The notes under the pieces are model-generated. The model had not been told where the DNA came from. It was given only the letters and a program-made list of their open reading frames with translations, and searched no databases. 64,000 bases of DNA, from positions 62,001-126,000 of the forward strand of contig JAJKHS010000144.1 in the NCBI GenBank assembly GCA_021154885.1, given 5' to 3'. Made by a program: the position numbers and the translations under genes. Source of the stretch: Thermoanaerobaculum sp. GTDB lineage: Bacteria > Acidobacteriota > Thermoanaerobaculia > Multivoradales > UBA5704. Below are positions 1,968 through 46,940 of the stretch, piece after piece; the first letter of the stretch is position 1, and each line of letters opens with the position of its first letter.

Positions 1968-3272
1968 ATGGCAAAGCGACTCGGCTGGCTGTTGTTCCTC
2001 GCTCCCTCACTGCTTTTCGCCCAGGGCAACCCCGCAGGCGACTGGCAGGTCATGACGGATATCTACGGCAACCCGCTGCACCAGAGACTGGTGCTGACGA
2101 GCGAGGGCGGCAAGCTCACGGGCGAGCTCGCCGGCGACAAGTTGGAGGGCACGGTGAGCGGCAAGGCCGTCCACTTCGTCGCCAAGGGGGACAACCCCGG
2201 CGACACCGCCGAGTACACCGGCACCCTGGAGGGCGACACGATCTCCGGTCAAGCCGTGCTCACCGACGGCGACGATAAGTCGCGCACACTCGGCGCGTTC
2301 ACCGCGCGTCGCCTGCCGCAGCGCCCGCCGGGTCCGCCGCGACGACACGAATTCACGCCGTCCACCTACTATCGCCAGTTCTCGGCGTCCACCCAACCGG
2401 TGCTAACGGTCTGGCCCGGGGACACGATTCACACCACGACGGTCGATGCCGCCGGCGCCGACGCCGGCGGTGTGACGCGCGTGCTCGGAGGCAATCCGCA
2501 AACGGGGCCGTTCTACGTCGAGACCGCCTTGCCGGGCGACGTTCTCGCCGTCCACGTCAACCGCTTGCGATTGAATCGCGACTACGCGATCAGCGATGAC
2601 CAGATCGTCGGCCGTGCCTTGAATTCACAGCTCGCGGTGAAAATGAAAGATACGGGCAAGACCATTCGCTGGCATCTCGATCTCGAACGCGGCGTGGCGA
2701 CTCCCGCCAATCCGACCGATCATCTGAAGCAGTACACCGTGCCTCTGCGCCCCATGCTGGGCTGCGTCGGAGTGGCGCCCGGTTTTGCCGCCGCGCCTTC
2801 TCCCACGGGCGATTCGGGCCGGTTCGGCGGCAACATGGATTTCAACGAGATCGTGGAAGGCGCGACCGTGTACCTACCGGTGCTGCAGCCCGGCGCGCTG
2901 CTGTACGTCGGCGACGCTCACGCCGCGCAGGGCGATGGCGAGCTCACCGGCAATGCGCTGGAAACCTCCATGGAGGTGGAGCTCACGGTCGACGTGCTGA
3001 CGCATAAATCCATTCTTTCGCCGCGCGTCGAATCGCCCACGCACCTCATGGCCGTGGGCCTGGCCGGCTCGCTCGACGAGGCTCTCCGCACCGCCACGGC
3101 CAGCCTGGCGCAATGGCTGGAGCAGGATTACAAGCTCACACCGCCGGAGATCGCGCAGGTGCTCGGCACCGCCATGGAGTATTCCGTCAACGAAGTCGCC
3201 GACCGCAACGTCGGCATCGTGGCCAAGATCAAGAAAGAACGGCTGGCGCCGCTGGGGGCTGCTAAGCCCTAA
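1968..3272 (+). CDS. Secreted acetamidase/formamidase family protein
   Basis: A 434-residue protein. Residues 1-20 form a signal peptide ending near LLFAQG. Residues 25-115 form a beta-rich domain of the kind often seen in secreted Acidobacteriota proteins. From residue 125 on comes the FmdA/AmdA fold: THPV-like start (ASTQPVLTVWPGDTI), GPFYVETALPGDVLAVHV, GDSGRFGGNMDFNEI near residue 285, and GDAHAAQGDGELTGNALE near residue 315. Family members hydrolyse formamide or short amides to ammonia and the acid. The H-A-A-Q-G-D-G-E motif and the Asp-rich G-G-N-M-D motif are intact, so it is probably active, but the substrate is open. The export signal is notable because well-studied relatives are cytoplasmic. 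Confidence 0.85.
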   Translation: MAKRLGWLLFLAPSLLFAQGNPAGDWQVMTDIYGNPLHQRLVLTSEGGKLTGELAGDKLEGTVSGKAVHFVAKGDNPGDTAEYTGTLEGDTISGQAVLTDGDDKSRTLGAFTARRLPQRPPGPPRRHEFTPSTYYRQFSASTQPVLTVWPGDTIHTTTVDAAGADAGGVTRVLGGNPQTGPFYVETALPGDVLAVHVNRLRLNRDYAISDDQIVGRALNSQLAVKMKDTGKTIRWHLDLERGVATPANPTDHLKQYTVPLRPMLGCVGVAPGFAAAPSPTGDSGRFGGNMDFNEIVEGATVYLPVLQPGALLYVGDAHAAQGDGELTGNALETSMEVELTVDVLTHKSILSPRVESPTHLMAVGLAGSLDEALRTATASLAQWLEQDYKLTPPEIAQVLGTAMEYSVNEVADRNVGIVAKIKKERLAPLGAAKP

Positions 3273-3535
3273 ACCTGTCTGATTTGTTCCTGAGCGATTT
3301 CCGCTTCTGTCGGAGTAGAGCGGCTGACGGCCGCGGCGACCTGCTCGCGGAGAACTTGCAGGGTCAGGTCGATCGTCCGCCGGTGGGTACGGAACGAGCG
3401 TTTCGATCTGCCGGAGGAACCGCTCGGAGGAGGCGACCACCGCGTTGCGCAGGTGCTTGCGCCGGGTAGCCCCGGGATCGAGCGGACGGGCGGGTTGGAC
3501 GGCATTGGTTGTCTCACAATAATCGGGACAGTCAA
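3269..3535 (-). pseudogene. Probable frameshifted remnant of a small gene
   Basis: Downstream of the PEP-mutase gene the minus strand shows protein-like sequence split over two frames. One frame gives ARPLDPGATRRKHL then SSERFLRQIETLVPYPP. The other continues with TIDLTLQVLREQVAAAV and ends EAEIAQEQIRQV at a stop near 3269. Joining them needs one frameshift around 3390-3410. The N-terminal piece loosely resembles the start of PLP-dependent decarboxylases/aminotransferases, but far too little remains to name it. A TTG-initiated 88-codon frame spans the region, but its N-terminal half is compositionally noisy. Confidence 0.35.
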
Positions 3536-4380
3536 TCAGGATCGGCAGGCCTCGGCTGGCTGAGCAGGAAGCCGTTGAGCTCCGCCGTGCTCAGGGAGCG
3601 GTCGAGGTAGCCGAACGTGCCCTTTTCCTTGACCTCCCGAGCGGCTTCGAGCAGGCCGTTCATGGCCGCGCGATACAGCGACCCGGCAAGGCTGATCCGC
3701 CTGACACCGGCCTCCTCGAGCTCGGCGACCGTGAAGGACCTGCCCTTGATGCCGGCCATGAAGTTGACCGGCTTCGACACCGCCGCGCAGACCGCGCGCA
3801 CGGCTGCGAGGTCGGGCAAGCCCGGCGCGAACAGCACGTCCGCGCCCGCTCTTTCAAACGCCTGCAACCGCTTGATCGTGTTTTCCAGATCCGGATTGCC
3901 GCGCAGGAAGTTCTCCGCGCGGGCGGTCAAGATAAAAGGGAAAGGGAGCGCCCGCGCCGCCCGCACCGCAGCCTCCACGCGTTCGGCCGCGTGGCCGATG
4001 TCATAGAGAGGCTTGTCCTTGTCGCCCGTCGCATCCTCGATCGAGCCGCCGACCAGCCCTGCCTGAGCGGCGAGGCGAATCGTCTCTGCCGCGGCCGCCG
4101 GCGCGTCGCCGAAGCCCTTCTCCAGATCGGCCGACACGGGGAGGTTGGTGGCCATGACGATGGCCCGGGCCTGCGCCAGCGCCTCCTCGCGCGTCACCTG
4201 GCCGTCGTGGCGGCCCAGGACGGCGGCGGAGGCGCCGCTCGACGTCGCCAGCGCCTGGAATCCGACTCCGGCGAGGATACGGGCGGAGCCTGCGTCCCAC
4301 GCGTTTGCAATCACGAAGGCACCCGGTCCCTGATGCAGCGCTGCGAAGCGGGTGGCCTTTTCGGTCTGGGTTGCGGCCAT
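3532..4380 (-). CDS. Isocitrate lyase / phosphoenolpyruvate mutase family protein
   Basis: A 282-residue TIM-barrel enzyme. The ATG at 4380 was chosen because GGAG lies 8 bases upstream; longer in-frame starts lack ribosome sites. Key segments are FVIANAWDAGSARILAGVGF near residue 20, ATSSGASAAVLGRHDG near residue 40, the metal-site strand VSADLEKGFGD near residue 85, GGSIEDATGD near residue 115, and FILTARAENFLRGN near residue 155. These match the PEP mutase/2-methylisocitrate lyase superfamily, which makes or breaks C-C or P-C bonds next to a carboxylate. The usual KKCGH loop of true isocitrate lyases is absent; the ASAAVLGRHDG segment occupies that area, so the reaction is unknown. It is divergent from the sigma-54 activator at 4508. 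Confidence 0.82.
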   Translation of the reverse strand: MAATQTEKATRFAALHQGPGAFVIANAWDAGSARILAGVGFQALATSSGASAAVLGRHDGQVTREEALAQARAIVMATNLPVSADLEKGFGDAPAAAAETIRLAAQAGLVGGSIEDATGDKDKPLYDIGHAAERVEAAVRAARALPFPFILTARAENFLRGNPDLENTIKRLQAFERAGADVLFAPGLPDLAAVRAVCAAVSKPVNFMAGIKGRSFTVAELEEAGVRRISLAGSLYRAAMNGLLEAAREVKEKGTFGYLDRSLSTAELNGFLLSQPRPADPD

Positions 4381-4489
4381 GAAGTTCTCCATGTGCTGAA
4401 GAGGCTCAGCCGAGCGTACCGCATCATAGACTGGATTCGGGCACAGGACCCTCGGCCTCGCCTTGGGTTTGACGTCCGTTGCCGGTCTC

Positions 4490-4506
4490 TGTACATTCCG
4501 TGTACA
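4490..4506. promoter_or_regulatory. TGTACA direct repeat before the sigma-54 activator
   Basis: Two copies of the palindrome TGTACA (4490-4495 and 4501-4506) are spaced 11 bp apart, one helical turn, and end one base before the ATG at 4508. This looks like a binding site for a dimeric regulator, possibly autoregulation of the downstream gene. That is inference only. Confidence 0.35.
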
Positions 4507-4507
4507 T

Positions 4508-6052
4508 ATGGCGCTGCTCAACGACAGCGAACGCGACTTCGCGACCGCGGTCTCTCACCTCGCCTACGTCAACCCGTTCCTGCCCGAGCGGATCGAGTGG
4601 GAGCGGCGGGCGATCGGCGAGGAGCACGTCCCCTTTGGCGGGGTCTGGCACGCGGGGGTCGATCCCGGGGGACCGAACCCCAATGAGGTGCGGATCGCCG
4701 CGCGCTCGGAGGCGCTCGCCGAGGGGCTGCGAGAGCGCCTGGCGGGGGGAACGCGCGCCTCCGCAGAGGAGCTCGAGCTGTACCAGGATCTCGCGCTCTA
4801 CCTCCTCTACTACCGTTACAACGCGCAGCTCTACGAGGCCGTCGTCGTGGGAGAGCGGGGCCGGAAGCCCGACCTGGGCTTCTTCGCCGATTTTGCCGCC
4901 GATTGCGAGCGCTTCCTCGCGCCTGCCGCCGGCCGGCTGCGGCCCCGCTTCGACCCGGCCCACCTGTTCGCCTGCTGCTTCCAGGTCCGCCGCGCCTTCC
5001 ACTCCATCTTCAGCTCGATCATCGGCGGCTCGATGCCGGCGGCACGGCTGCGCGCCCAGATCTGGCAATCGATCTTCACCCACGACCTGCGGCGCTATCA
5101 GCGGTCTCTCTACCTGCGCCTGGGCGATGTGACCACGCTCGTCACGGGCCCGTCAGGCACTGGCAAGGAGCTGGTGGCGCGCGCCATCGCCCTTTCGCGA
5201 TACATCCCTTTCGATCCGGCCACTCGCAGCTTCGGCGAGCGTCCGGACGAATCGTTTTTCCCCTTCAATCTCTCCGCCCTCTCTCCGACGCTCATCGAGT
5301 CGGAGCTCTTCGGTCACCGCCGCGGCGCCTTCACCGGCGCCATCGCGGAACGCGCCGGCTGGTTCGAGGTCTGCCCGCCGCTCGGCACCGTCTTCCTCGA
5401 CGAGATCGGCGAGGTGGACGTCGCCATTCAGGTCAAACTGCTGCGCGTCCTCGAGACGCGGACCTTCCAGCGCCTGGGCGACACCCGGGACCTGCGCTTT
5501 CGCGGCAAGGTCGTGGCGGCGACCCACCGCGACCTGGCGGACGAGATGGAGGCCGGCCGTTTCCGCGAGGACCTCTATTACCGGCTCTGCTCGGACCGCA
5601 TCGAGACGCCGTCGCTCGCCGAGCGCCTGCGCGACTCGCCGCAGGAGATCTCGGACCTCGTCCTCTTCCTCGCCCAGCGGCAGGTGGGGGAAGAGCCGGC
5701 TGCCGAGCTGGCGCGGGAGGTCGTCGCCTGGATCGACCGCCGGCTGGGCCGCGATTACCCGTGGCCGGGCAACGTCCGCGAACTCGCTCAGTGCGTGAGC
5801 AACGTCCTCATCCGCCGCGAGTACCTCCCCGCCGCCCGGGTCGCGGCCAGCGATCCGCGCCGGGCTCTGGTGGAGGAGATCCTCGCCGCCCGGCTGTCGG
5901 CCGAGGAGGTCCTCGGCCGCTACTGCACGCTGGTCTACGCCGAGACCGGCAGTTATCAGGAGACCGCCCGCCGCCTCGGGCTCGATCGCCGGACCGTGAA
6001 AACGCGGGTGGACCCGGAGTTGCTCGCGAGGCTTCAGGGCCGCCGGTCGTGA
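4508..6052 (+). CDS. Sigma-54-dependent transcriptional activator with novel N-terminal domain
   Basis: A 514-residue bacterial enhancer-binding protein. Residues 1-205 form an unrecognised alpha-helical regulatory domain instead of a receiver, GAF or PAS domain. The AAA+ domain has Walker A GPSGTGKELVARAIA near residue 214, the sigma-54 contact loop in ELFGHRRGAFTGAIA near residue 270, Walker B GTVFLDEIGEV near residue 298, and DYPWPGNVRELAQCV near residue 417. The C-terminus (GSYQETARRLGLDRRTVKTR) is a Fis-type helix-turn-helix. It should therefore open sigma-54 promoters in response to an unknown signal. The ATG at 4508 begins directly after a TGTACA repeat with no clear Shine-Dalgarno. 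Confidence 0.9.
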   Translation: MALLNDSERDFATAVSHLAYVNPFLPERIEWERRAIGEEHVPFGGVWHAGVDPGGPNPNEVRIAARSEALAEGLRERLAGGTRASAEELELYQDLALYLLYYRYNAQLYEAVVVGERGRKPDLGFFADFAADCERFLAPAAGRLRPRFDPAHLFACCFQVRRAFHSIFSSIIGGSMPAARLRAQIWQSIFTHDLRRYQRSLYLRLGDVTTLVTGPSGTGKELVARAIALSRYIPFDPATRSFGERPDESFFPFNLSALSPTLIESELFGHRRGAFTGAIAERAGWFEVCPPLGTVFLDEIGEVDVAIQVKLLRVLETRTFQRLGDTRDLRFRGKVVAATHRDLADEMEAGRFREDLYYRLCSDRIETPSLAERLRDSPQEISDLVLFLAQRQVGEEPAAELAREVVAWIDRRLGRDYPWPGNVRELAQCVSNVLIRREYLPAARVAASDPRRALVEEILAARLSAEEVLGRYCTLVYAETGSYQETARRLGLDRRTVKTRVDPELLARLQGRRS

Positions 6053-6057
6053 TTCGT

Positions 6058-6318
6058 TTAGATGCGACCCTCGTATAGGTCTGCCACTGGAAAGCACAGG
6101 TCGTACTCACCCCAGAGCAAGTCGCCCTGTTCGACCCGGAAGCTCGCGAATTTGTCCGGCTCGAGGAATGACCGGATGGCCGGATGGCCGGAACTACAGA
6201 GAAACGGTCCGAAGTCGACGGTTCGCTCCGTGCCATCGCTGAAGACGAGCCGCAAGCGGTACGCCCCCTCGTGTTCTGCCCGCACCACATCGATGCTGAT
6301 ACCTTCGACGAGCTTCAC
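6058..6318 (-). CDS. DUF2442 domain protein
   Basis: An 86-residue protein with the DUF2442 pattern: ISIDVVRAEHEGAYRLRLVF, then the D-G-x-E-R-T-V-D-F-G-P-F turn, and a final DLLWGEYDLCFPVADLYEG. I chose a GTG start at 6318: it has CGGAG upstream and overlaps the stop of the DUF4160 gene as GTGA, the usual mark of translational coupling. DUF2442 and DUF4160 genes commonly occur as neighbouring pairs and are suspected to form toxin-antitoxin-like modules, but no activity is established for this pair. The fold is small and beta-rich. Confidence 0.78.
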   Translation of the reverse strand: MKLVEGISIDVVRAEHEGAYRLRLVFSDGTERTVDFGPFLCSSGHPAIRSFLEPDKFASFRVEQGDLLWGEYDLCFPVADLYEGRI

Positions 6319-6620
6319 CCTAGCCTCCGACTCACTGTCACGGATGGAACCTGCTTGTGCAGGATAAAGTAATCGATCCATTTGGTGATAATATCATTGG
6401 CATAGTGCCGAGTCAAGGTCTCAAAGTCGCGCAACTGCGCGCCTTCCAGCGGGCGCCGGCCACGCACAGGGCCGAAACGGATCTCCACTACGACTCCATC
6501 CGCGACGATCAATTCGGCTTTGCTCTCACGGCCCTGGTATTTGCCGTGCACGTGAACGGGTTCATGCTCGTTGGAGTAGAAGAGCACTACCAGTCCGAAG
6601 TATTCGTAGAGCTTTGGCAT
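6315..6620 (-). CDS. DUF4160 domain protein
   Basis: A 101-residue protein matching DUF4160: MPKLYEYFGLVVLFYSNEHE, then P-V-H-V-H-G-K-Y-Q-G-R-E-S-K-A-E near residue 22 and a C-terminal helix (TLTRHYANDIITKWIDYFI). The ATG at 6620 has GGAG nine bases upstream. The next gene starts inside its stop codon, so the two are cotranscribed. The conserved H-V-H near the N-terminus is typical of the family. The pair sits alone between a sigma-54 activator and a secreted protein, which fits a small mobile addiction-type module, but that is inference. Confidence 0.78.
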   Translation of the reverse strand: MPKLYEYFGLVVLFYSNEHEPVHVHGKYQGRESKAELIVADGVVVEIRFGPVRGRRPLEGAQLRDFETLTRHYANDIITKWIDYFILHKQVPSVTVSRRLG

Positions 6621-6911
6621 ATTTTCTGTCTCCAGGGAACACCGCGCGCGCCAAGAGTAAACGCGTGCGATAGAACCATGAGAAGCAAACCGAAGTTGTT
6701 TTTCCCTTCCCGCAGAATATATGGCAGCAGAGCGCTTCACCACAACCGGCGAACCTATTGCCGTTATCGGCTAGTACCGCGCCGGCAAGGCATCGGCGGC
6801 TGTGGACGAGCTCCGGCCCCCACCGGCGCAGGGCTGTGCCCCCGGTCAGGTCACCAAATCCACCGCCTGAGGCACTGAAGATATGGAGCCCTCATCGAAA
6901 GGAGCGTCTCG

Positions 6912-8606
6912 ATGCCCCATGTCTCCCGGTCCCCCTGGTTGAAAGCCGCCCTCCCCCTCCTTGCAAGCCTCAGCCTCGCCATGCCCGGCCTGGCTCAGCC
7001 CACGGTCGGCTCGTCCAACACCGCCACGGCCGATCCGCCCGTGTCGCGGCCGCATACGACGCCTTGCGCCGTGCAGCTCTTCTCCAACTTCCAGTTCGCG
7101 GACTTCTCGCCGAAGCCGTTCACTTACACGCCGGCTGCGAGTTGCCCGGGACCGTGGGCGAAGGTCGTGCTGGAGGCGGACTTCTCCTGCACGGCGGGCC
7201 GGCAGTTCGATCGCACGGCGCAGATCGCGATCGGGCACGTGAACGTCTATTTCGGCACGACGTCCGAGCCGTCCAGCGCCGTCAGCCCGACCTGGCACGT
7301 GGAGCGCGACCTCACCGACTACAGCCCGTTGTTCCGCGCCGCGCAGGCCGGCGACGTGAACCTTGGCAACCTGGTCAACTCCACGTTCACGGGCATTCTC
7401 AGCGGCAGCGCGAGGCTGCTGTTCTACCCCCCTTCCCACTCCGAGCCGGCGCCGCGGACGGCCGACGTGGTGCTGCCCATGGCCAGTGCCCCGGGGGGCG
7501 CGGTCCTGCTCCAGACGACGGCGGACGTTCTCGCCCCCACGTTCTCGCTGCCGGCCAACGTCGAAGGCGCCTTTCTGGACGTGATCACGCAGAGTCAGTC
7601 GAGCGACGAGTTCTGGTTCACGTGCGTGCCAGATGATGTCGCGAACGAGCTCTTCAGTTGCGGCGGCACCGCCTTCCGCGAAGCGGAGGTCACGATCGAC
7701 GGGCAGCCGGCTGGCCTCGCTCCAGTCTATCCATGGATCTTCACCGGCGGCATCGATCCGCTGCTGTGGCGGCCGATCCCCGGCGTGCAGACGCTGAATT
7801 TCCTGCCGTACCGCGTCGACCTCACGCCGTTCGCCGGCGTGCTCAGCAACGGCCAGCCCCATCAGGTGGGCTTGAGCGTCTTCAATTCCAACCACTACTT
7901 CCAGGTGACGGGCTCGCTCCTGCTCTACCTCGATCACGGCGCGAGCCACGTGACGGGCGCCGTGACCCAGAACACGCTCGGCTCGGGCCCGCACCCGTCG
8001 GTCCAGGAAAATCTCGCGACGGCGACGGACGGCACCATCACCGGCACGGTGAACACCAAGGCGCAGCGGGATTTCGCGATTTCAGGATACGTCAATACCT
8101 CGCACGGCCGGGTGGACACCACGATCCTGCAGCAGGTGGGGTTTTCGAACGATCAGCGATTCGTCAACTCGGCGACGCAGTTCGTCCAGAACATCACGCA
8201 GAAAACGGATCTCCTCTCGGTGACGACGCAGACAGGCCAGCACGGCGCGGTCACCATCGCGCAGAAAACGTTTTCCTATCCGCTGACTCTCGACATCAAC
8301 TTCACCGTCAACGCGGACGGCTCCGCTGCCCAGACGACGACCAGCGATCAGAAGTTTCAGAGTCAGCAGGCGCAGGTGGGGCATGGCTTCCCCTTTCTCG
8401 GGGTCGTTTCCAACGAGGTCGCCTCGAGCGACACGCTGCTCTTCGACGCGTCCGGAAACCTCACGGGATTCCAGAATCGCAACGGGTCCCAGAGCTATTT
8501 CGCGCAGAGCACCAACGGCGACTGCTACAGCCGGTCGATAGCATCGGCAAGCGGTGTTTTGACGTCGGTGACGGATGGCAAGGGTTGCTTCGGCGGCAAC
8601 CACTGA
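6912..8606 (+). CDS. Secreted peptide-N-glycosidase A (PNGase A)-like protein
   Basis: A 564-residue exported protein with a signal peptide ending near PGLAQP and AAAGGAG before the ATG. Residues 55-330 match the PNGase A N-terminal domain pattern: FSPKPFTYTPAASCPGPW, KVVLEADFSCTAGRQFDRTA, the TSEPSSAVSPTWHVERDLTDY segment, and LGNLVNSTFTGILSGSARLL with FYPP. PNGase A enzymes, best known in plants and fungi, cleave the amide bond between N-glycans and asparagine. The C-terminal 200 residues are beta-rich with repeated Thr/Gln strands. Bacterial copies are scattered in soil groups. Catalytic residues are not well enough known to confirm activity, so I call it PNGase A-like. Confidence 0.7.
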   Translation: MPHVSRSPWLKAALPLLASLSLAMPGLAQPTVGSSNTATADPPVSRPHTTPCAVQLFSNFQFADFSPKPFTYTPAASCPGPWAKVVLEADFSCTAGRQFDRTAQIAIGHVNVYFGTTSEPSSAVSPTWHVERDLTDYSPLFRAAQAGDVNLGNLVNSTFTGILSGSARLLFYPPSHSEPAPRTADVVLPMASAPGGAVLLQTTADVLAPTFSLPANVEGAFLDVITQSQSSDEFWFTCVPDDVANELFSCGGTAFREAEVTIDGQPAGLAPVYPWIFTGGIDPLLWRPIPGVQTLNFLPYRVDLTPFAGVLSNGQPHQVGLSVFNSNHYFQVTGSLLLYLDHGASHVTGAVTQNTLGSGPHPSVQENLATATDGTITGTVNTKAQRDFAISGYVNTSHGRVDTTILQQVGFSNDQRFVNSATQFVQNITQKTDLLSVTTQTGQHGAVTIAQKTFSYPLTLDINFTVNADGSAAQTTTSDQKFQSQQAQVGHGFPFLGVVSNEVASSDTLLFDASGNLTGFQNRNGSQSYFAQSTNGDCYSRSIASASGVLTSVTDGKGCFGGNH

Positions 8607-8616
8607 GGACACGTAG

Positions 8617-8645
8617 CAGGGAGAGGGCGCGGCGTCCTCTCCCTG
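8617..8645 (+). terminator. Hairpin after the PNGase A-like gene
   Basis: A perfect 10-bp stem (CAGGGAGAGG and CCTCTCCCTG) with a 9-base loop lies 11 bases after the stop codon. There is no T tract, so it may be a weak or factor-assisted terminator. Confidence 0.5.
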
Positions 8646-8725
8646 GAGTCCTTCGTCTCGCAGTGCTTTCCTCGCGGTGTGGGTCTGGAGTAAGCTGGCG
8701 GCCGACCGGTTTCCAGAGGATCCCG

Positions 8726-9523
8726 ATGAAGTCACCCCGCATGCTGGCCTGTCTCGTCGGTCTCTGCGGTCTCTGCGCATGGGCGCTGCCGGCGCCCGTC
8801 GCGGCGGAAGACCTCAAGGAGCTCAACCACCGGGCTCGCGGCTCGGTCGTCCTGCTGAAGAACCTCGACGCCTCGGGCGACGAGGTGGCCGAGGGCACGG
8901 GCTTCGTCATCCACGGCGGCTACATCCTCACCAATCATCATGTGGTGAACGGCGCCTCGCGCATGCAGGCGGTGCTGGCGGACAAGAGCGTCCTCGAGCT
9001 GCGGGGCATCCTCGCCCAGGACGCCGATCACGACCTCGCCATCCTCAAGGCTCCCGCCAACCGCTTGCGGCCGCTCGCCCTGGTGGGCGCCGATCCGGTC
9101 GAGCCTGGGGAGCGGGTGGTGGTGCTCGGCAATCCTCTGGGCTTTTCGAGCACCCTGTCGGACGGCATCGTCTCGGCCTGGCGCGAGAACGGCATCGACG
9201 AGGACCCGGACTTCATCAAGGGGCCGCTGCTGCAGATCACCGCTCCCATCTCCGAGGGCTCGAGCGGCTCGCCGGTGATGAACCTCAACGGCGAGGTGGT
9301 TGGTGTGGCGGTGGCGTTCTATGACGGTGGCCAGAGCCTCAACTTCGCCGTGCCCGCGAGCAGTGTGCGCAAGCTCCTGGCGCGGGTCGATCCCCAGCGG
9401 CTGGAGCAGAAGTTCGGGTCGAAGGCCGGCTTCGCAGGCAACTCGGAGGCCCTCCGCAACCTGGGGATCTCCGGGCTGATCTTCGCCGGCATTTTCGTAG
9501 CGTTCCGCCTGATGCGGAACTGA
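8726..9523 (+). CDS. Exported trypsin-like serine protease with C-terminal membrane anchor
   Basis: A 265-residue protein. The ATG at 8726, with AGAGGA upstream, gives a signal peptide ending near PAPVAAED. The HtrA-like catalytic triad is visible: His72 in YILTNHHVV, Asp103 in DHDLAILK and Ser180 in SEGSSGSPV. Unlike DegP/HtrA there is no PDZ domain; after the protease domain comes a final hydrophobic helix (GLIFAGIFVAFRLM), so it is probably tethered to the inner membrane from the periplasmic side. It lies 16 bases before the carbonic anhydrase gene. The likely role is periplasmic protein quality control or signalling cleavage. A far longer open frame begins upstream inside the PNGase gene but is not the real start. 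Confidence 0.85.
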   Translation: MKSPRMLACLVGLCGLCAWALPAPVAAEDLKELNHRARGSVVLLKNLDASGDEVAEGTGFVIHGGYILTNHHVVNGASRMQAVLADKSVLELRGILAQDADHDLAILKAPANRLRPLALVGADPVEPGERVVVLGNPLGFSSTLSDGIVSAWRENGIDEDPDFIKGPLLQITAPISEGSSGSPVMNLNGEVVGVAVAFYDGGQSLNFAVPASSVRKLLARVDPQRLEQKFGSKAGFAGNSEALRNLGISGLIFAGIFVAFRLMRN

Positions 9524-9539
9524 ATCGGGAGGGTTTCTC

Positions 9540-10346
9540 ATGCAGATCTCCAGTTTTCGCCGTCTCGCCGTCCTATCCGTCGGCCTGCTGCTAGCCGCCG
9601 CCTGCGCCGGGCCTCCGGCGCCGCAGCCGCGCCCCGTCAACTGCTGCAATGTGCCGTGGGGATATCAAGTCCCGGAGAACTGGGCCTCGCTCTCGCCCTG
9701 CTACGAGGAGTGCCGGGACGGCGGCGAGCAGTCTCCCATCGATTTCGTCAACCCCAGGCAGCAATCCTTGAATGCCGTCGATTTCTCCTATGGCAAGGTT
9801 TCGGGCCTGAAGTCGAGGAACGACGGCCACAAAATCATCATCGACATTCCTCAGGCCACAGCAGGTGGGGTGCCTCTGGCCTCGCTGAAGCTCGACGGTG
9901 TGACCTACATCCTGCAGCAATTTCATTTCCACACTCCCAGCGAGCACAAGATCCGCGGCAACGAACGGCCGATCGAGATACACTTCGTCAACGTCTCTCC
10001 CGGCGGCCGGGTGGTGGCGATCGGGGTCTTCGTCAATCGTGGAACGTCCAACCCCGAGCTGGCGAAGATCTGGAGGAACCTGCCAGGCGACGTCGTCGGT
10101 GAGCTCGATCTGGCCCGCCTGCTGCCGGCTGGTCGCACGTCTTTTCGCTACACCGGCTCGCTGACCAATCCTCCCTGCGGTCAGGGCTTCCAGTGGATCG
10201 TCTACCACGACGCCATCGAGCTGAACCAAGACGACATCCAAAAGCTCCGGGACATTTTTTCCGGGCCTGCCTTCCCCGACGGCAACCGCCGGCAGGTCCA
10301 GCCGCTCAACGGGCGGGTGGTGGTGACGGACGTGCCGCGGCCGTGA
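9540..10346 (+). CDS. Alpha-class carbonic anhydrase, exported, probable lipoprotein
   Basis: A 268-residue protein whose N-terminus is a signal peptide ending AAAC at Cys22, a possible lipidation site. The family motif GGEQSPIDF is at residues 61-69. Zinc ligands are His129 and His131 in QQFHFHTPSEH and His148 in IEIHFVN; the family usually has a further His two residues on, here Asn. FRYTGSLTNPPCGQGFQWIV carries the conserved substrate-pocket Thr and the Cys that pairs with an N-terminal Cys. It should reversibly hydrate CO2 in the periplasm or at the outer membrane. The ATG follows GGGAGGG. The upstream neighbour is the anchored protease, probably in the same transcript. Confidence 0.92.
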   Translation: MQISSFRRLAVLSVGLLLAAACAGPPAPQPRPVNCCNVPWGYQVPENWASLSPCYEECRDGGEQSPIDFVNPRQQSLNAVDFSYGKVSGLKSRNDGHKIIIDIPQATAGGVPLASLKLDGVTYILQQFHFHTPSEHKIRGNERPIEIHFVNVSPGGRVVAIGVFVNRGTSNPELAKIWRNLPGDVVGELDLARLLPAGRTSFRYTGSLTNPPCGQGFQWIVYHDAIELNQDDIQKLRDIFSGPAFPDGNRRQVQPLNGRVVVTDVPRP

Positions 10347-42136: not shown

Positions 42137-44101
42137 TCAGCCCGCGCTTCGGGGAGACGGCGGGCGGTTGGTCATCAACAGATACTTCTCCTGCCGCATC
42201 AGGATCAGCCCCGGCGCCAGCCCGTCGCTCTGCATCCTGGGCAGCTTCTCCGCCTCCAGGACCAGATAGACGGTCCGACCGGAAGCCCAGACCGGCTGGA
42301 ACTGCGCCGCACCGGGAAACCGGCGGGCCCGCTCCTCCGGCGCCAAGTGCTGGATCCCGAAGGCCAGCTCCCCCTGGTACTCGACGAGGCCGACGAGCCG
42401 CTGGAGGTAGAACGGCAGGGTCTGAGGATAGCAGCGATAGGCGTAGACCTCGTCTCCCGGAGCGAGACGGCCGGCGAGGACGCGGGCGATCGGCTCGGCG
42501 CTCAGCCTCTGGGCGGCCCGCGGCCCGAGGGAGACGAGGCAGATCACCAGCAGCACCGGACCGGCCGCCAATGCCCCCAGGCTCGGCAGGCTCCGGAGAC
42601 TCCCCCGCCGCCAGAGCCAGGCCGAAAGGAGGCAGAGAGCCAGGGTCGGCACGGCGAGGACAAGAAGGCTGGGGACGACATCAGTCGAGACCTCTCTCAC
42701 CCGGCCGAAGGAAACCCAGAGGAGGGCCGCGGCCAGCACTGCAAGCAGCAGGGCCCCCACCGCGCCGCCGGCCCGGGCCCACGAGCGGAGGCGCTCGTCT
42801 TCTTCCGCCGCCGCCAGCGCCACGGCGATCAGCACGGCGAGCGGTGGGATGGCCGGCAGGATATACGGCACGAGCTTCGACTGCGAGACCGAGAAGAAGA
42901 CGAAGACGAATCCCGCCCAGCAGGCGAGGAAGATCAGTCCGGGACGATCCCGCAGTCGCCCTGTCTTCCTCTGGAAGAGCCGCGCCGCGGCGGGCAGCAC
43001 GCCCGACCAGGGGAGGAGGCCGATCGCCAGGATGGCGGCGAAGAACCAGAACGGAGCCTGGCGTTTGGCCTCCGAGGTGGCATAGCGCTGGAGGTGCTCG
43101 TGGACGAAGTAGAACCAGAGGAAGTCCGGGCTGCGTCGGGCCGCCAGCACGTGCCAGGGCGCGGCGATGGCCAGGAACAGGAGGATGCCGCTCACCCAGG
43201 GAACCCGCAGCAGCCGCCGCCATCGCCGGGCGAACAGGAGATGGAAGAAGATCACCGCCCCGGGGATGACGAAGCCGATCAGCCCCTTGGCGAGCGTCGC
43301 GAGCGCCGCCGAGGCGAACATGCCGTACCAGAGGAGCCGCTCTCCTCGCTCCCCCGTAGGCGCTAACTTTGCCCTTGCCTCCGAGCGCCCCCGCCCGAGG
43401 GCCCTCACCCCTGTCCCCTCTCCCGCCCCCTCCCACCCCCCTCCCCGGGAGAGGGGAACCCGGTTGGAGTGGTCTTGCCGTTCTCCCTTTTCTCCCGGTG
43501 AGGGGGGTGGCGAGGGGGCGGGAGAAGAGGGCCGGGGTGATGAGGGTCTTGGGTGGGGGAGCTCTGAGTCCAAGTCAGCGCCTGTGCCCCGCTCTCCCCG
43601 CTCCTGGGCCAGCCAGAAGCAGGTCAGGGTGGCGCTGAGGAAGAAGGTCAGCGTCATGTCGATGATGGTGGAGCGGGAGAGGGCGACCCAGAGCGGCGAG
43701 CTGCCGAGGACGAGCCCCGAGACCCGCGCCACCCGCGGTCCGCCGATGGAGCGGCCGAGCGCCCAGGCGAGCCCGACTCCCGCCAAGCCGAAGATCGCCC
43801 CGGCGAGCCGGCAGAGCATCTCGGGCCGCCCGGGCAGTGTCAAGGCCGCCGCGTTCAGCCAGTAGTAGAGCGGCGGCTTCTCCAAGTAGAGGACGCCGTT
43901 CAGGTGCGGCAAAACGAAATCGCGCCCCGACAGCATCTCGCGCGGGATCTCGGTGTAGCGTCCCTCGTCCGGCTCGATCAGCGGGTAGGCCCCCAGGCCG
44001 GCGAAGAAGACAAGGAAGACGGCGAGGGCGAGGAGCAGCCGGGCGGGCCATCCCAAAGGCGCTCCAGGAGAGCGGGCGGAAGAGACGAGGGATTCGGGCA
44101 T
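42137..44101 (-). CDS. arnT: ArnT-like lipid A aminoarabinose transferase with in-frame repeat insertion
   Basis: A 654-residue inner-membrane GT39 glycosyltransferase. The first helix (LLLALAVFLVFFAGLGAYPL) leads to the ArnT/PMT motif IEPDEGRYTEIPREMLSGRD, with the catalytic Asp, then VLYLEKPPLYYWLNAAALTL. About twelve helices follow and a soluble C-terminal domain. ArnT transfers Ara4N from undecaprenyl phosphate to lipid A in the periplasm and confers resistance to cationic peptides. Enterobacterial ArnT is about 550 residues; the excess is a low-complexity segment at residues 172-252 encoded by a palindromic repeat. The start is the ATG at 44101, which lacks a clear Shine-Dalgarno. First gene of the arn operon. 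Confidence 0.85.
   Translation of the reverse strand: MPESLVSSARSPGAPLGWPARLLLALAVFLVFFAGLGAYPLIEPDEGRYTEIPREMLSGRDFVLPHLNGVLYLEKPPLYYWLNAAALTLPGRPEMLCRLAGAIFGLAGVGLAWALGRSIGGPRVARVSGLVLGSSPLWVALSRSTIIDMTLTFFLSATLTCFWLAQERGERGTGADLDSELPHPRPSSPRPSSPAPSPPPSPGEKGERQDHSNRVPLSRGGGWEGAGEGTGVRALGRGRSEARAKLAPTGERGERLLWYGMFASAALATLAKGLIGFVIPGAVIFFHLLFARRWRRLLRVPWVSGILLFLAIAAPWHVLAARRSPDFLWFYFVHEHLQRYATSEAKRQAPFWFFAAILAIGLLPWSGVLPAAARLFQRKTGRLRDRPGLIFLACWAGFVFVFFSVSQSKLVPYILPAIPPLAVLIAVALAAAEEDERLRSWARAGGAVGALLLAVLAAALLWVSFGRVREVSTDVVPSLLVLAVPTLALCLLSAWLWRRGSLRSLPSLGALAAGPVLLVICLVSLGPRAAQRLSAEPIARVLAGRLAPGDEVYAYRCYPQTLPFYLQRLVGLVEYQGELAFGIQHLAPEERARRFPGAAQFQPVWASGRTVYLVLEAEKLPRMQSDGLAPGLILMRQEKYLLMTNRPPSPRSAG
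43391..43561. repeat. Long palindromic repeat inserted in frame in arnT
   Basis: Imperfect inverted arms of about 48 bases (left GGCCCTCACCCCTGTCCCCT... near 43398, right its mirror ending near 43550) meet around a second GGGAGAGGGGAAC/GTTCTCCC pair. Near-identical 16-base direct repeats (CGCTCTCCTCGCTCCC at 43338 and CGCTCTCCCCGCTCCT at 43590) flank it. It is open in the arnT frame and encodes a Pro/Ser-rich then Gly-rich stretch. A shorter relative lies at 22092. Confidence 0.75.
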
Positions 44102-44447
44102 GAGGAGGTGGACCGTACCGGGAGCGGCGGCAGGCGGGAAGCTGGGACCCTGCCAAGCCGGCGAAAATCGGCGGGAAGTGTGTCGCATCAGAGTCGGTAA
44201 AACAACCCTGCCTCTGAGGCAGGCGAGTCGGCGTCGGCTATGCACCTCAAGGGCTCGCTTGGCCTATACGGCCCAGGATGACCTCGTCTCCGCCAGAGTC
44301 TTTCTGAGTCACCGTTCGGACACACTCCTGCTGGAGTTCTACTCACGGTGGAATAGCCCTCCGATCGGGCTGACGGCTGTCAAGAAACGCGGTCGGCGGG
44401 GCTACCCGGCGACAAAGGTCAGCTCCTTGGAGCTCGAAGAGGGGGGC
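44102..44447. other. Intergenic region upstream of the arn operon
   Basis: 346 bases with no supported gene. A palindrome CCTGCCTC-T-GAGGCAGG at 44207-44223, about 106 bases upstream of arnT, is a possible operator. Base composition changes here from the GC-rich arn genes to the less GC-rich ATPase gene. Confidence 0.4.
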
Positions 44448-46382
44448 CTACTCGAAGATCGTCAGCTGCGGCTCCTCCTCCTCTTCGCCAAGAACTTCGA
44501 GAACATCAAACCGTCTTGACGGATCGCCGGTCGCTGCTTGAATCTTCCGGTGCAGGTTGAACGTCCGAGAGTGGGCGCGGCCCAAAACGATGTCATACGT
44601 CAAGGGCGTAACCGCCACTTGGCCTTGCTGCAAAGGCTCCAGGCCGTGCTCAATCGACGCACCCATCACGAAGACCACGATGGCAGTTCCTTTCTGCACG
44701 GCGCCCACCTTGACCAGTTCCTTGGCATAGTCCCTTCCTTGATCGAGCTCCCTCTGGGTCACCTCAAAGGCGCCGCGCTTCAGCTCCAGGATCAGCAACT
44801 TGCGAATACCGATGATCTCGCCCGATTCGTCATAAGAATCAGCCGCATAGAGACCGATCGAGGAGTCCTCCCTAATCACGAAATCCATTCTCCGCTTCGA
44901 GATCTCGCCCAGAGTGTCGATCCTGAGTAATCCGCGAAGCACCTCGGCCATCCCGCGGTTGGACCTGAAGTCAACCGCCTCGTACTCTGGCCCGAAGATC
45001 CATAGCCCCTTCTCAAAAAGAGGCTGCAGATCATGAAGCTCGTCCGCTCGATCATCGCGAACAAGCTTCTGGAGCTCGTCGATGAGTCGAAGGCGCTTTT
45101 CCAACTCGCTGAGGACGATCTCAGCTTCCCGGGCAGACCACCGCTTCATGATTTCGTTCCAGGCGTCCAGATCTTCCGGAGAGCATATCAGGAGTTGCTT
45201 GAGAAGATCGTACCCTGAGCGGGCTTGCTCCAACTTCGCCAGAACCCCCACAGCTCTAGACAAGTCTCCCTCAGACATGGTCGGGCATTGCTGTTGAATC
45301 TCGTCGACGAACTCATCTACGACCAGCTTTGAAAAGCGCGGAAGCTCTTTGACGGCATCACGATTCTGCTCGAGCGCGGTCCGCTTCTTCTCTTTTCTAG
45401 CCTGTGCAAGAAGCTCTCGAAGAGACGCAATTACATGCTTCAGAATCACGTCCTTGACTTCACTGCTCCGCCTCGTTGCATGAAAACCACTCCAGTCATG
45501 CTTGACATCTTCCTTGAGGATGTCTGCCTCAATGACGAAACTGTGAGTCTTAGCCGCAGCTGTCCTGCCATCGAGAATTGCACCAGAGTCTGTCAAGCCT
45601 GACCACGAGGGCTCTCCGACCATTCTTCGGTTGACCCACCAAGTGATTCCTTTGAGATGCGTGGTCCTATCCCTGACCGTGGCATCAATCTGATGAATTG
45701 TTACCTCGCCATAAGGAGGTACTGCAATGGTCCGACTTGACAGGTGCTCAAGATCAAGGAGCTCGAGCTTTTTTCTGTTCAGGTAGATGTCAAATGTGGG
45801 ATCGACGAGAAATTTTGAGCCAAGAGCCTCTTCGACCTCTTCGGGACTGATCAATCTCCTCGTTACCGTAGCACGAACAATCGTGCCATGACCTTCGCGT
45901 CCCTCTTCCTGTTCGACTCTGAAGTGAAACGGCTCCTCGCCTCCAGAGGTCAACTCCACTCGCGCGAGCGCCCAAAGCCCGTCTCTCCACGTCTCGACCC
46001 AATATGCGTCCGCAAAGCAAAAGGCTCCATGCCGTCCCTTGCCATTCTGGCCAAATGCGGCGCGCTCCCTTTTTCCTCTCGTCCCCGCCGGGAACTCGAC
46101 TTTCACCCCTTGCTCCTCGAGACGGTTATAGCTGAGAGTACGCCAGCGGCGGTTGAACTGCTCGAGAGTCATTCCAGTACCGTTGTCCGCTATCTCGAAC
46201 TTCCCCCCTTTCTCCTCCGGCCAGACCACCCTCACTTCTGTAGCGCCCGCATCGTAGCTATTTGCTACCAGCTCCACAATCGCGATTCGCGGCTCGGTCA
46301 TGATGTAGCCGGCATGATCACGCAGGAAGCTCGACCCGAATAGCAGACCTTGCTCAGGCGAGGAGATTGTCTCAACAGTCAT
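44448..46382 (-). CDS. GHKL (MORC/Hsp90-like) ATPase fused to PD-(D/E)XK nuclease domain, candidate defence gene
   Basis: A 644-residue protein. Residues 20-175 are a GHKL ATPase: N box IAIVELVANSYDAGATEVRV (Glu37, Asn41, Asp44), G1 DNGTGM at 67, and lid/G2 FGQNGKGRHGAFCFA at 110. Residues 180-300 resemble the S5/transducer domain. A helical linker (300-450) leads to a C-terminal region with a nuclease-like pattern: WIFGPEYEAVDFRSNRGMAE, Asp500 in RRMDFVI, and Glu533-Leu-Lys535 in LLILELKRG, then an alpha-beta end (TAIVVFVMG). This resembles the Shedu/DUF4263 type of PD-(D/E)XK domain. Such ATPase-nuclease fusions are known or suspected anti-phage proteins. The gene is visibly less GC-rich than its neighbours and stands alone, pointing to acquisition by transfer. 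Confidence 0.78.
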   Translation of the reverse strand: MTVETISSPEQGLLFGSSFLRDHAGYIMTEPRIAIVELVANSYDAGATEVRVVWPEEKGGKFEIADNGTGMTLEQFNRRWRTLSYNRLEEQGVKVEFPAGTRGKRERAAFGQNGKGRHGAFCFADAYWVETWRDGLWALARVELTSGGEEPFHFRVEQEEGREGHGTIVRATVTRRLISPEEVEEALGSKFLVDPTFDIYLNRKKLELLDLEHLSSRTIAVPPYGEVTIHQIDATVRDRTTHLKGITWWVNRRMVGEPSWSGLTDSGAILDGRTAAAKTHSFVIEADILKEDVKHDWSGFHATRRSSEVKDVILKHVIASLRELLAQARKEKKRTALEQNRDAVKELPRFSKLVVDEFVDEIQQQCPTMSEGDLSRAVGVLAKLEQARSGYDLLKQLLICSPEDLDAWNEIMKRWSAREAEIVLSELEKRLRLIDELQKLVRDDRADELHDLQPLFEKGLWIFGPEYEAVDFRSNRGMAEVLRGLLRIDTLGEISKRRMDFVIREDSSIGLYAADSYDESGEIIGIRKLLILELKRGAFEVTQRELDQGRDYAKELVKVGAVQKGTAIVVFVMGASIEHGLEPLQQGQVAVTPLTYDIVLGRAHSRTFNLHRKIQAATGDPSRRFDVLEVLGEEEEEPQLTIFE

Positions 46383-46590: not shown

Positions 46591-46716
46591 CTACTTCGAC
46601 ATCCGAGGGTCCGTTCCAGGCCAATCAGATCCGCGCCACTTTTCCACACTTCGGCGCCCCGCCCCCCTGGCCAAAGCCACCAAGGCTTCGGCGTCGAGCA
46701 CGACGCAACGGCTCAT
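46591..46716 (-). pseudogene. Truncated PIN-type toxin gene
   Basis: The ATG at 46716 overlaps the antitoxin stop as ATGA, the normal toxin-antitoxin coupling. The first 17 residues (MSRCVVLDAEALVALAR) are the start of a PIN-domain nuclease with its first catalytic Asp. After that the sequence loses similarity and stops after 41 codons, where a VapC-like toxin would need about 130. The toxin has therefore been deleted by a rearrangement just inside its 5' end. Confidence 0.65.
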
Positions 46717-46940
46717 CCAAGGAGTCCGACGTACTTTTCCACCAGAGATTCGTCCACCGGCCCATGCTCTGCGTCGAGCTGGTCGAGCAACTCGACGAGG
46801 AGCCGGTGGCGGCGGCGGCGCTCAAGCTCCGCACTGACTGCGGCGTTCACTTGGGCCGAGAGCCCTTCATCTTCCCGCTTGAGCTCCTCAACCAAGTCCT
46901 CGTCCAGGGATACCGAAACCTTGCGCTTGGTCAGGGACAT
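46713..46940 (-). CDS. VapB-like antitoxin, toxin partner broken
   Basis: A 75-residue protein: MSLTKRKVSVSLDEDLVEEL then a charged helix (SAQVNAAVSAELERRRRHRL) and LLDQLDAEHGPVDESLVEKY, ending LLG. The N-terminal strand and helix look like a ribbon-helix-helix DNA-binding domain and the C-terminal half is the toxin-wrapping tail. No Shine-Dalgarno precedes the ATG at 46940, and a promoter -10 sits only 6 bases upstream, so the mRNA may be leaderless. The toxin following at 46716 is truncated, which makes this an orphan antitoxin. Confidence 0.75.
   Translation of the reverse strand: MSLTKRKVSVSLDEDLVEELKREDEGLSAQVNAAVSAELERRRRHRLLVELLDQLDAEHGPVDESLVEKYVGLLG

Follow-up and report, generated by a model that had tools for sequence, protein, structure and literature searches.

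Proteins that join a GHKL ATPase to a nuclease have been described from two directions. In 2008, Iyer, Abhiman and Aravind predicted the paraMORC3 proteins, in which GHKL and S5 domains are followed by a C-terminal RE-fold domain with an E-D-ExK signature (PMC2292703). The family was defined without experiment, and its stand-alone genes showed a patchy distribution in Bacteroidetes and Proteobacteria (PMC2292703). In 2025, the Vibrio cholerae protein VcSduA (VC_00276 of the WASA lineage), named 'Shedu type I-D', became the first protein of this class found to defend against phages, namely T1-like phages and vibriophage X29, and the defence was abolished by either an E27A substitution in the ATPase or a K557A substitution in the nuclease (PMC12137116). 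Infected cultures survive, which, together with the need for both active sites, fits a direct restriction of phage DNA (PMC12137116). In classic Shedu, an N-terminal clamp detects DNA ends, and the nick is made at a set distance from them (PMC12904381).

The locus analyzed here lies in a window of 64,000 nucleotides, the whole stretch of DNA under study, from a Thermoanaerobaculum sp. of the Acidobacteriota. From sequence, structural models and analogy with characterized proteins, we consider it very probable that the gene encodes an anti-phage nuclease of the GHKL-Shedu class (paraMORC3; Shedu type I-D), one that stands alone and was acquired horizontally. It occupies 44448-46382 on the minus strand, as do all parts of it given below, and its frame of 644 aa begins with ATG and has no internal stops. 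The ORF, Pfam, alignments and models together point to a GHKL-S5-linker-PD-(D/E)XK protein that is paraMORC3- or Shedu type I-D-like. In a Pfam scan of the 644-aa protein, GHKL was the sole domain above cut-off, with HATPase_c_3 (PF13589) scoring 48.6 bits over residues 31-137 against a cut-off of 25. This match and the fold match to MORC ATPases place the GHKL (Bergerat-fold) domain at residues ~16-190 (45813-46337). Within it are the N box E37-N41-D44 (ELVANSYDA, 46248-46274), the G1 box D66-x-G68-x-G70 (DNGTGM, 46170-46187) and the G2 box G111-x-x-G114-x-G116 (GQNGKGR, 46032-46052). The first-pass annotation had claimed a full GHKL ATPase with all three boxes, and the Pfam score and the invariance of the boxes in 65 relatives bear this out.

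The AlphaFold2 model of the full protein had a mean pLDDT of 81.4 and a pTM of 0.56, the latter leaving the relative domain placement uncertain. Residues 1-326 of the model form the GHKL and S5 module. Its best structural matches were MORC3, MORC4 and MORC2, with Z of 20-22 and 271-295 residues aligned at 3-4.5 Å; Hsp90s matched at Z 17-20, below the MORC ATPases. The alignment of residues 1-326 to the MORC GHKL-S5 modules (Z 20-22) indicates that an S5 domain follows the GHKL domain, and the S5-like transducer part was assigned from MORC2/3/4 to residues ~195-326 (45405-45800), an approximate boundary. The linker proposed earlier between ATPase and nuclease appears in the model as an all-helical segment by DSSP, at residues ~327-414 (45141-45404). 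The Shedu-type PD-(D/E)XK nuclease domain, placed by the model, the structural match to 8ti9 and hhalign, covers residues ~415-622 (44517-45140). Its putative active site consists of E448 (45039-45041), the candidate for the leading acidic position of the E-D-ExK signature in the family alignments, the predicted catalytic D500 (44883-44885), invariant in the alignments, and the ExK motif E533-L-K535 (44778-44786), seen in both the family and the wider alignments. It is followed by a Q-x3-Y552 motif, of which Q548 (44739-44741) is invariant in the family. D500 and E533-x-K535 are thus where the first reading of the sequence had put them, and the signature extends to E448, W461, Q548 and Y552.

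Motif conservation was scored across 65 aligned, divergent proteins of the GHKL-nuclease type. E37, N41, D44, D66, G68, G70, G111, G114 and G116 had no exceptions in the ATPase half (65 of 65), and D500 and Y552 were likewise kept in all 65. The other residues of the nuclease half, W461 among them, were conserved with few exceptions. E448 was kept in 63 of the 65 wider relatives and is invariant in the family alignments; E533 is replaced by Asp in three. K535 is replaced by Met in one, and Q548 by Arg in one group of six, both being invariant within the family. In the query's own clade, E533 alone varies among the nuclease motif residues, being Asp in two proteins. Such near-complete retention across 65 relatives exceeds chance by far and shows strong selection on both active sites.

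The nature of the nuclease domain was examined by structure and by profile. A separate model of residues 415-625 gave a pLDDT of 81.1 and a pTM of 0.78. Plain Foldseek of this model against the PDB returned nothing below E 0.001. When the Foldseek candidates were re-aligned, the B. cereus Shedu nuclease 8ti9 ranked first (Z 10.2, 143 residues, 3.1 Å), tied within 1 Z unit with the nicking enzyme N.BspD6I (Z 9.6), and E. coli SduA (8ps4) reached Z 9.1; all three are PD-(D/E)XK enzymes. Together with the nuclease fold, E448, D500 and E533-x-K535 constitute a C-terminal RE-fold nuclease with the E-D-ExK signature. The nuclease profile, searched against PDB sequences, yielded chance matches only, and Pfam SduA_C (PF14082, formerly DUF4263) had no match to the query protein at E ≤ 10, but it matched three of 25 aligned relatives, with a best E of 2.4e-6. 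The PADLOC SduA model gave a marginal 18.7 bits over residues 320-467, outside most catalytic motifs. With hhalign, the nuclease half matched four Shedu proteins at E 6.7e-13 and a probability of 97.8%, a comparison that is biased because three of the four had been recruited by a motif that the query also has. A less biased test used the classic SduA encoded in the same genome, which was found by PF14082 and thus recruited independently of the query motif; it gave E 1.2e-6 and a probability of 90.9, the best of 20 shuffles being 0.047. Since this match is far better than the shuffles, the C-terminal domain, judged from its profile, is a divergent Shedu-type nuclease although PF14082 does not match it. 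The resemblance to Shedu/DUF4263 suggested earlier therefore stands for the structural top rank and hhalign, but not for the DUF4263 model itself; the nuclease core expected from a structure prediction is present, with Shedu as the top-ranked solved match. The classic Shedu, a 346-aa protein, is encoded on the minus strand (L150:483-1523, G000:C45) with an SduA_C score of 69.3 bits, and two Shedu-type nucleases coexist in this genome. A PF14082 search of three relatives' genomes gave zero matches, the controls in the same search being equally silent.

The gene differs from its surroundings. Its GC is 0.554 and its GC3 0.639, whereas the four neighbors have a GC of 0.665-0.70 and a GC3 of 0.85-0.95, as the first-pass annotation had noted for GC. 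The flanking genes encode an ArnT-like glycosyltransferase and a pullulanase, which are adjacent in the congener G002 too; between them lie 3.1 kb here and ~1 kb of unrelated DNA in G002. Because the site in G002 is filled by other DNA rather than cleanly empty, the exact ends of the insertion cannot be drawn. Upstream of the gene, a toxin-antitoxin remnant holds an ORF of 75 aa for a CcdA-type antitoxin (46716-46940, minus strand; Pfam CcdA 27.3 bits, cut-off 22.4), which overlaps the start of a truncated VapC/PIN-like toxin beginning of 41 aa (MSRCVVLDAEALVALARG..., ~46594-46716, minus strand). Of the toxin-antitoxin debris claimed to adjoin the gene, the antitoxin is thus backed by Pfam, and the VapC-like fragment was assigned from its translation by eye, with no model matched. 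No homologue of the query gene was found in the genomes of two congeners and one other family member, and a search of 39 relatives gave one full-length relative at 33% identity. In a phylum sample of 297 genomes, two others had a close homologue, ~50% identical, one of them broken. Judged from the GC3 shift, the gene is foreign and horizontally acquired, and the other DNA found there in the congener, with the toxin-antitoxin remnant upstream, marks its site as variable and as one where mobile genes accumulate. The signs of a mobile islet read from the sequence at the outset are upheld by the GC3 shift, the different DNA in the congener and the patchy distribution.

The gene also stands alone, as had been proposed. 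The 25 Pfam families with the most members in the 41 window proteins included neither a methyltransferase nor a helicase, no restriction or methylase model was matched in a PADLOC scan of the window, and no other defence gene was adjacent to the query gene by the Pfam and PADLOC scans. A C5-methylase (PF00145) was absent from the whole genome, which is 96.6% complete, in a search that was positive in 10 of 14 controls. Other window proteins include a TPR/CHAT-domain protein, a sigma-54 activator, a DegT/ArnB-like aminotransferase and a pullulanase with X25 domains. Searches of the window (1-64000) for tRNAs and Rfam RNA families found none. The ArnT-like gene (42137-44245, minus strand) holds a palindromic interspersed repeat of ~200-245 bp (43353-43600; fold z-score -7.1) in frame within its CDS. 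There are ~40 copies of the repeat in the genome at 86-96% identity and diverged copies in the congeners, and the ArnT orthologues in G001 and G002 are without it at that place. It is an element of MITE-like or RPE-like character that the protein tolerates in its coding sequence.

Relatives of the protein occur in defence islands, on plasmids and in phage contigs. Species genomes, scanned once, yielded 32 loci, roughly two-thirds of them with near-full-length homologues of 31-51% identity, from Planctomycetota, Chloroflexota, Bacteroidota, Pseudomonadota and one archaeon. A plasmid scan added eight full-length homologues of 37-39% identity from Rhizobium, Agrobacterium, Azospirillum and Tritonibacter, and viral contigs (IMG/VR) added nine full-length relatives of 32-55% identity; a collection of annotated phages gave zero matches to the query protein. 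The viral-contig copies adjoin portal, terminase and integrase genes. The closest relative found (L072, ~2737-9887), 55% identical, is on a viral contig, where only a few genes separate it from a lambda-type portal gene upstream; from this position, it is phage-borne cargo of a defence-like kind. Elsewhere, one set of relatives neighbors AbiEi/AbiEii-type genes, RusA, helicases and a restriction endonuclease, others neighbor MmeI and Cas9, and a relative on a small plasmid has an AbiEii-type toxin and recombinases nearby. The 72 neighbors of genomic relatives include DISARM DrmA and DrmD, a type IIG enzyme, a UG21 reverse transcriptase, AIPR and integrases, a tally that describes neighborhoods without control neighborhoods and is not an enrichment test. 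On a Rhizobium plasmid (L037:11980-15385), a homologue is followed 10 bp downstream by an annotated Shedu immune nuclease gene, a possible two-nuclease unit from its gene arrangement. Seven Algoriphagus contigs (L007-L013) carry the match at the same coordinates, 8001-9836, with identical scores, and their flanking DNA differs, down to ~60% ungapped identity, which suggests near-identical protein copies in different species. Two copies of the family are broken: L054 is split, with one TGA and an overlap, and L077:6902-8731 is interrupted once, by a stop at codon 395 of the match.

Other roles have to be weighed against anti-phage defence. The GHKL half of the query matched the NCBIfam BbrUII/HgiDII model with 71.2 bits over residues 35-213, and PADLOC gave weak matches to GHKL restriction enzymes (REase_II, 33.8 bits), so the protein might be the restriction half of a restriction-modification system of that type, a GHKL enzyme paired with a C5-methylase that guards the host genome. 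Distant GHKL-nuclease relatives (L040, L041 and L042) do adjoin C5-methylase and Vsr genes. The equivalog cut-off of that model is 550, however, a C5-methylase is neither adjacent nor in the genome by the controlled search above, and just one of the 72 neighboring proteins of family members is such an enzyme. On the NCBIfam score, the neighbors and the genome-wide methylase search, this role is disfavored and we regard it as highly improbable. Much the same low probability attaches to a DNA-repair or chromosome-maintenance protein of the MutL type, an ATP-gated nickase outside defence. MutL likewise combines a GHKL clamp with a nicking domain, the GHKL half of the query resembles it (29.9 bits to TIGR00585), and ligD, RusA and imuA genes are found close to rhizobial relatives, all of which speaks for such a role. 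Yet the MutL models cover only residues ~24-76 and the score falls far under the NCBIfam equivalog cut-off of 180; the query nuclease domain is of the Shedu type and not the MutL type, the relatives recur beside defence and mobile-element genes, and the patchy distribution, foreign composition and variable site are at odds with housekeeping. The similarity to Hsp90/HtpG is confined to the ATPase module, the C-terminal domain of the query being a nuclease. Orthology to a housekeeping Hsp90/MutL protein, which the first reading had named as grounds for refutation, was not found, as only the GHKL part is common, the nuclease is extra and the gene is missing from two congeners; on domain content and distribution, the MutL/Hsp90 assignment was rejected.

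The close relatives in viral contigs, the nearest with 55% identity downstream of a portal gene, and those on conjugative plasmids raise a different question, that of ownership. The protein could guard mobile elements against each other by inter-phage or inter-plasmid exclusion, the window copy being a stranded cargo gene. This proposal shares its biochemistry with the main explanation and differs in the owner rather than the mechanism; with the window copy outside a recognizable prophage and chromosomal copies among host defence genes, we consider it improbable. That the gene once served defence and has since decayed beyond function could be argued from the adjoining toxin-antitoxin debris and the decay of L054 and L077, but a full-length frame with every catalytic residue intact makes this highly improbable.

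The preferred explanation, a single-gene anti-phage nuclease, takes up the candidate single-gene defence system of the first-pass annotation, and it is supported by its fit to the genomic context and to VcSduA, a characterized protein of the same architecture. The protein would act as a dimer, in which ATP binding may close the GHKL/S5 clamp around invading DNA. A closed or strained clamp would then position or release the C-terminal nuclease to nick or cut the trapped DNA, and ATP hydrolysis would reset the clamp, sparing host DNA that fails to trap it. Self-protection would thereby proceed without methylation; discrimination of the BbrUII type is unlikely because C5-methylases are absent from the genome. 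Candidate triggers are DNA ends, topology or a phage protein. A MORC-type clamp silences transposons and viruses in animals and plants. The clade of the query, with planctomycete, chloroflexi, Bacteroidetes, alphaproteobacterial, archaeal and phage-borne members, could conceivably form a separate GHKL-Shedu branch outside present defence models with a trigger of its own, such as a MORC-like DNA-compacting clamp that senses topology and not ends, which we put forward as a tentative and rather unlikely proposal. The analysis extends an experimentally supported, barely studied single-gene defence class to a broad clade missed by standard annotation. The union of a MORC-type clamp with a Shedu nuclease is a compact setting for studying how such a GHKL clamp distinguishes foreign DNA from self and gates a nuclease, and the conservation in 65 relatives supplies the residues for mutation.

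The comparison with known systems places the locus as follows. BbrUII/HgiDII enzymes also carry a GHKL ATPase and a nuclease in one chain, but the query is far under their equivalog cut-off and without a partner methylase. Classic Shedu (SduA; B. cereus 8ti8/8ti9 and E. coli 8ps4) has a nuclease domain homologous to that of the query, whereas its N-terminal domains are different and include no GHKL ATPase. With VcSduA the query shares a stand-alone gene, an N-terminal GHKL domain and a C-terminal Shedu-type PD-(D/E)XK domain, with the same N-box Glu and nuclease Lys. VcSduA was assigned to DUF4263 (now SduA_C), whereas the query has no SduA_C match, and the catalytic E-to-K spacing, compared by spacing and description alone, is 530 in VcSduA and 498 in the query, which probably puts the query in another clade. 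By the same spacing, the query's clade is set apart from those proteins that agree with VcSduA. With paraMORC3, matched by its published features alone, the query shares GHKL, S5 and an RE-fold domain with E-D-ExK in a stand-alone gene. The fusion was not recognized as a named system at first sight, but names do exist, paraMORC3 (2008) and Shedu type I-D/VcSduA (2025), and since the query has the published features of the former and the architecture of the latter, it is a protein of a known kind. The fusion itself is known; what is new here is a large, distinct clade of it, missed by Pfam SduA_C and barely seen by PADLOC.
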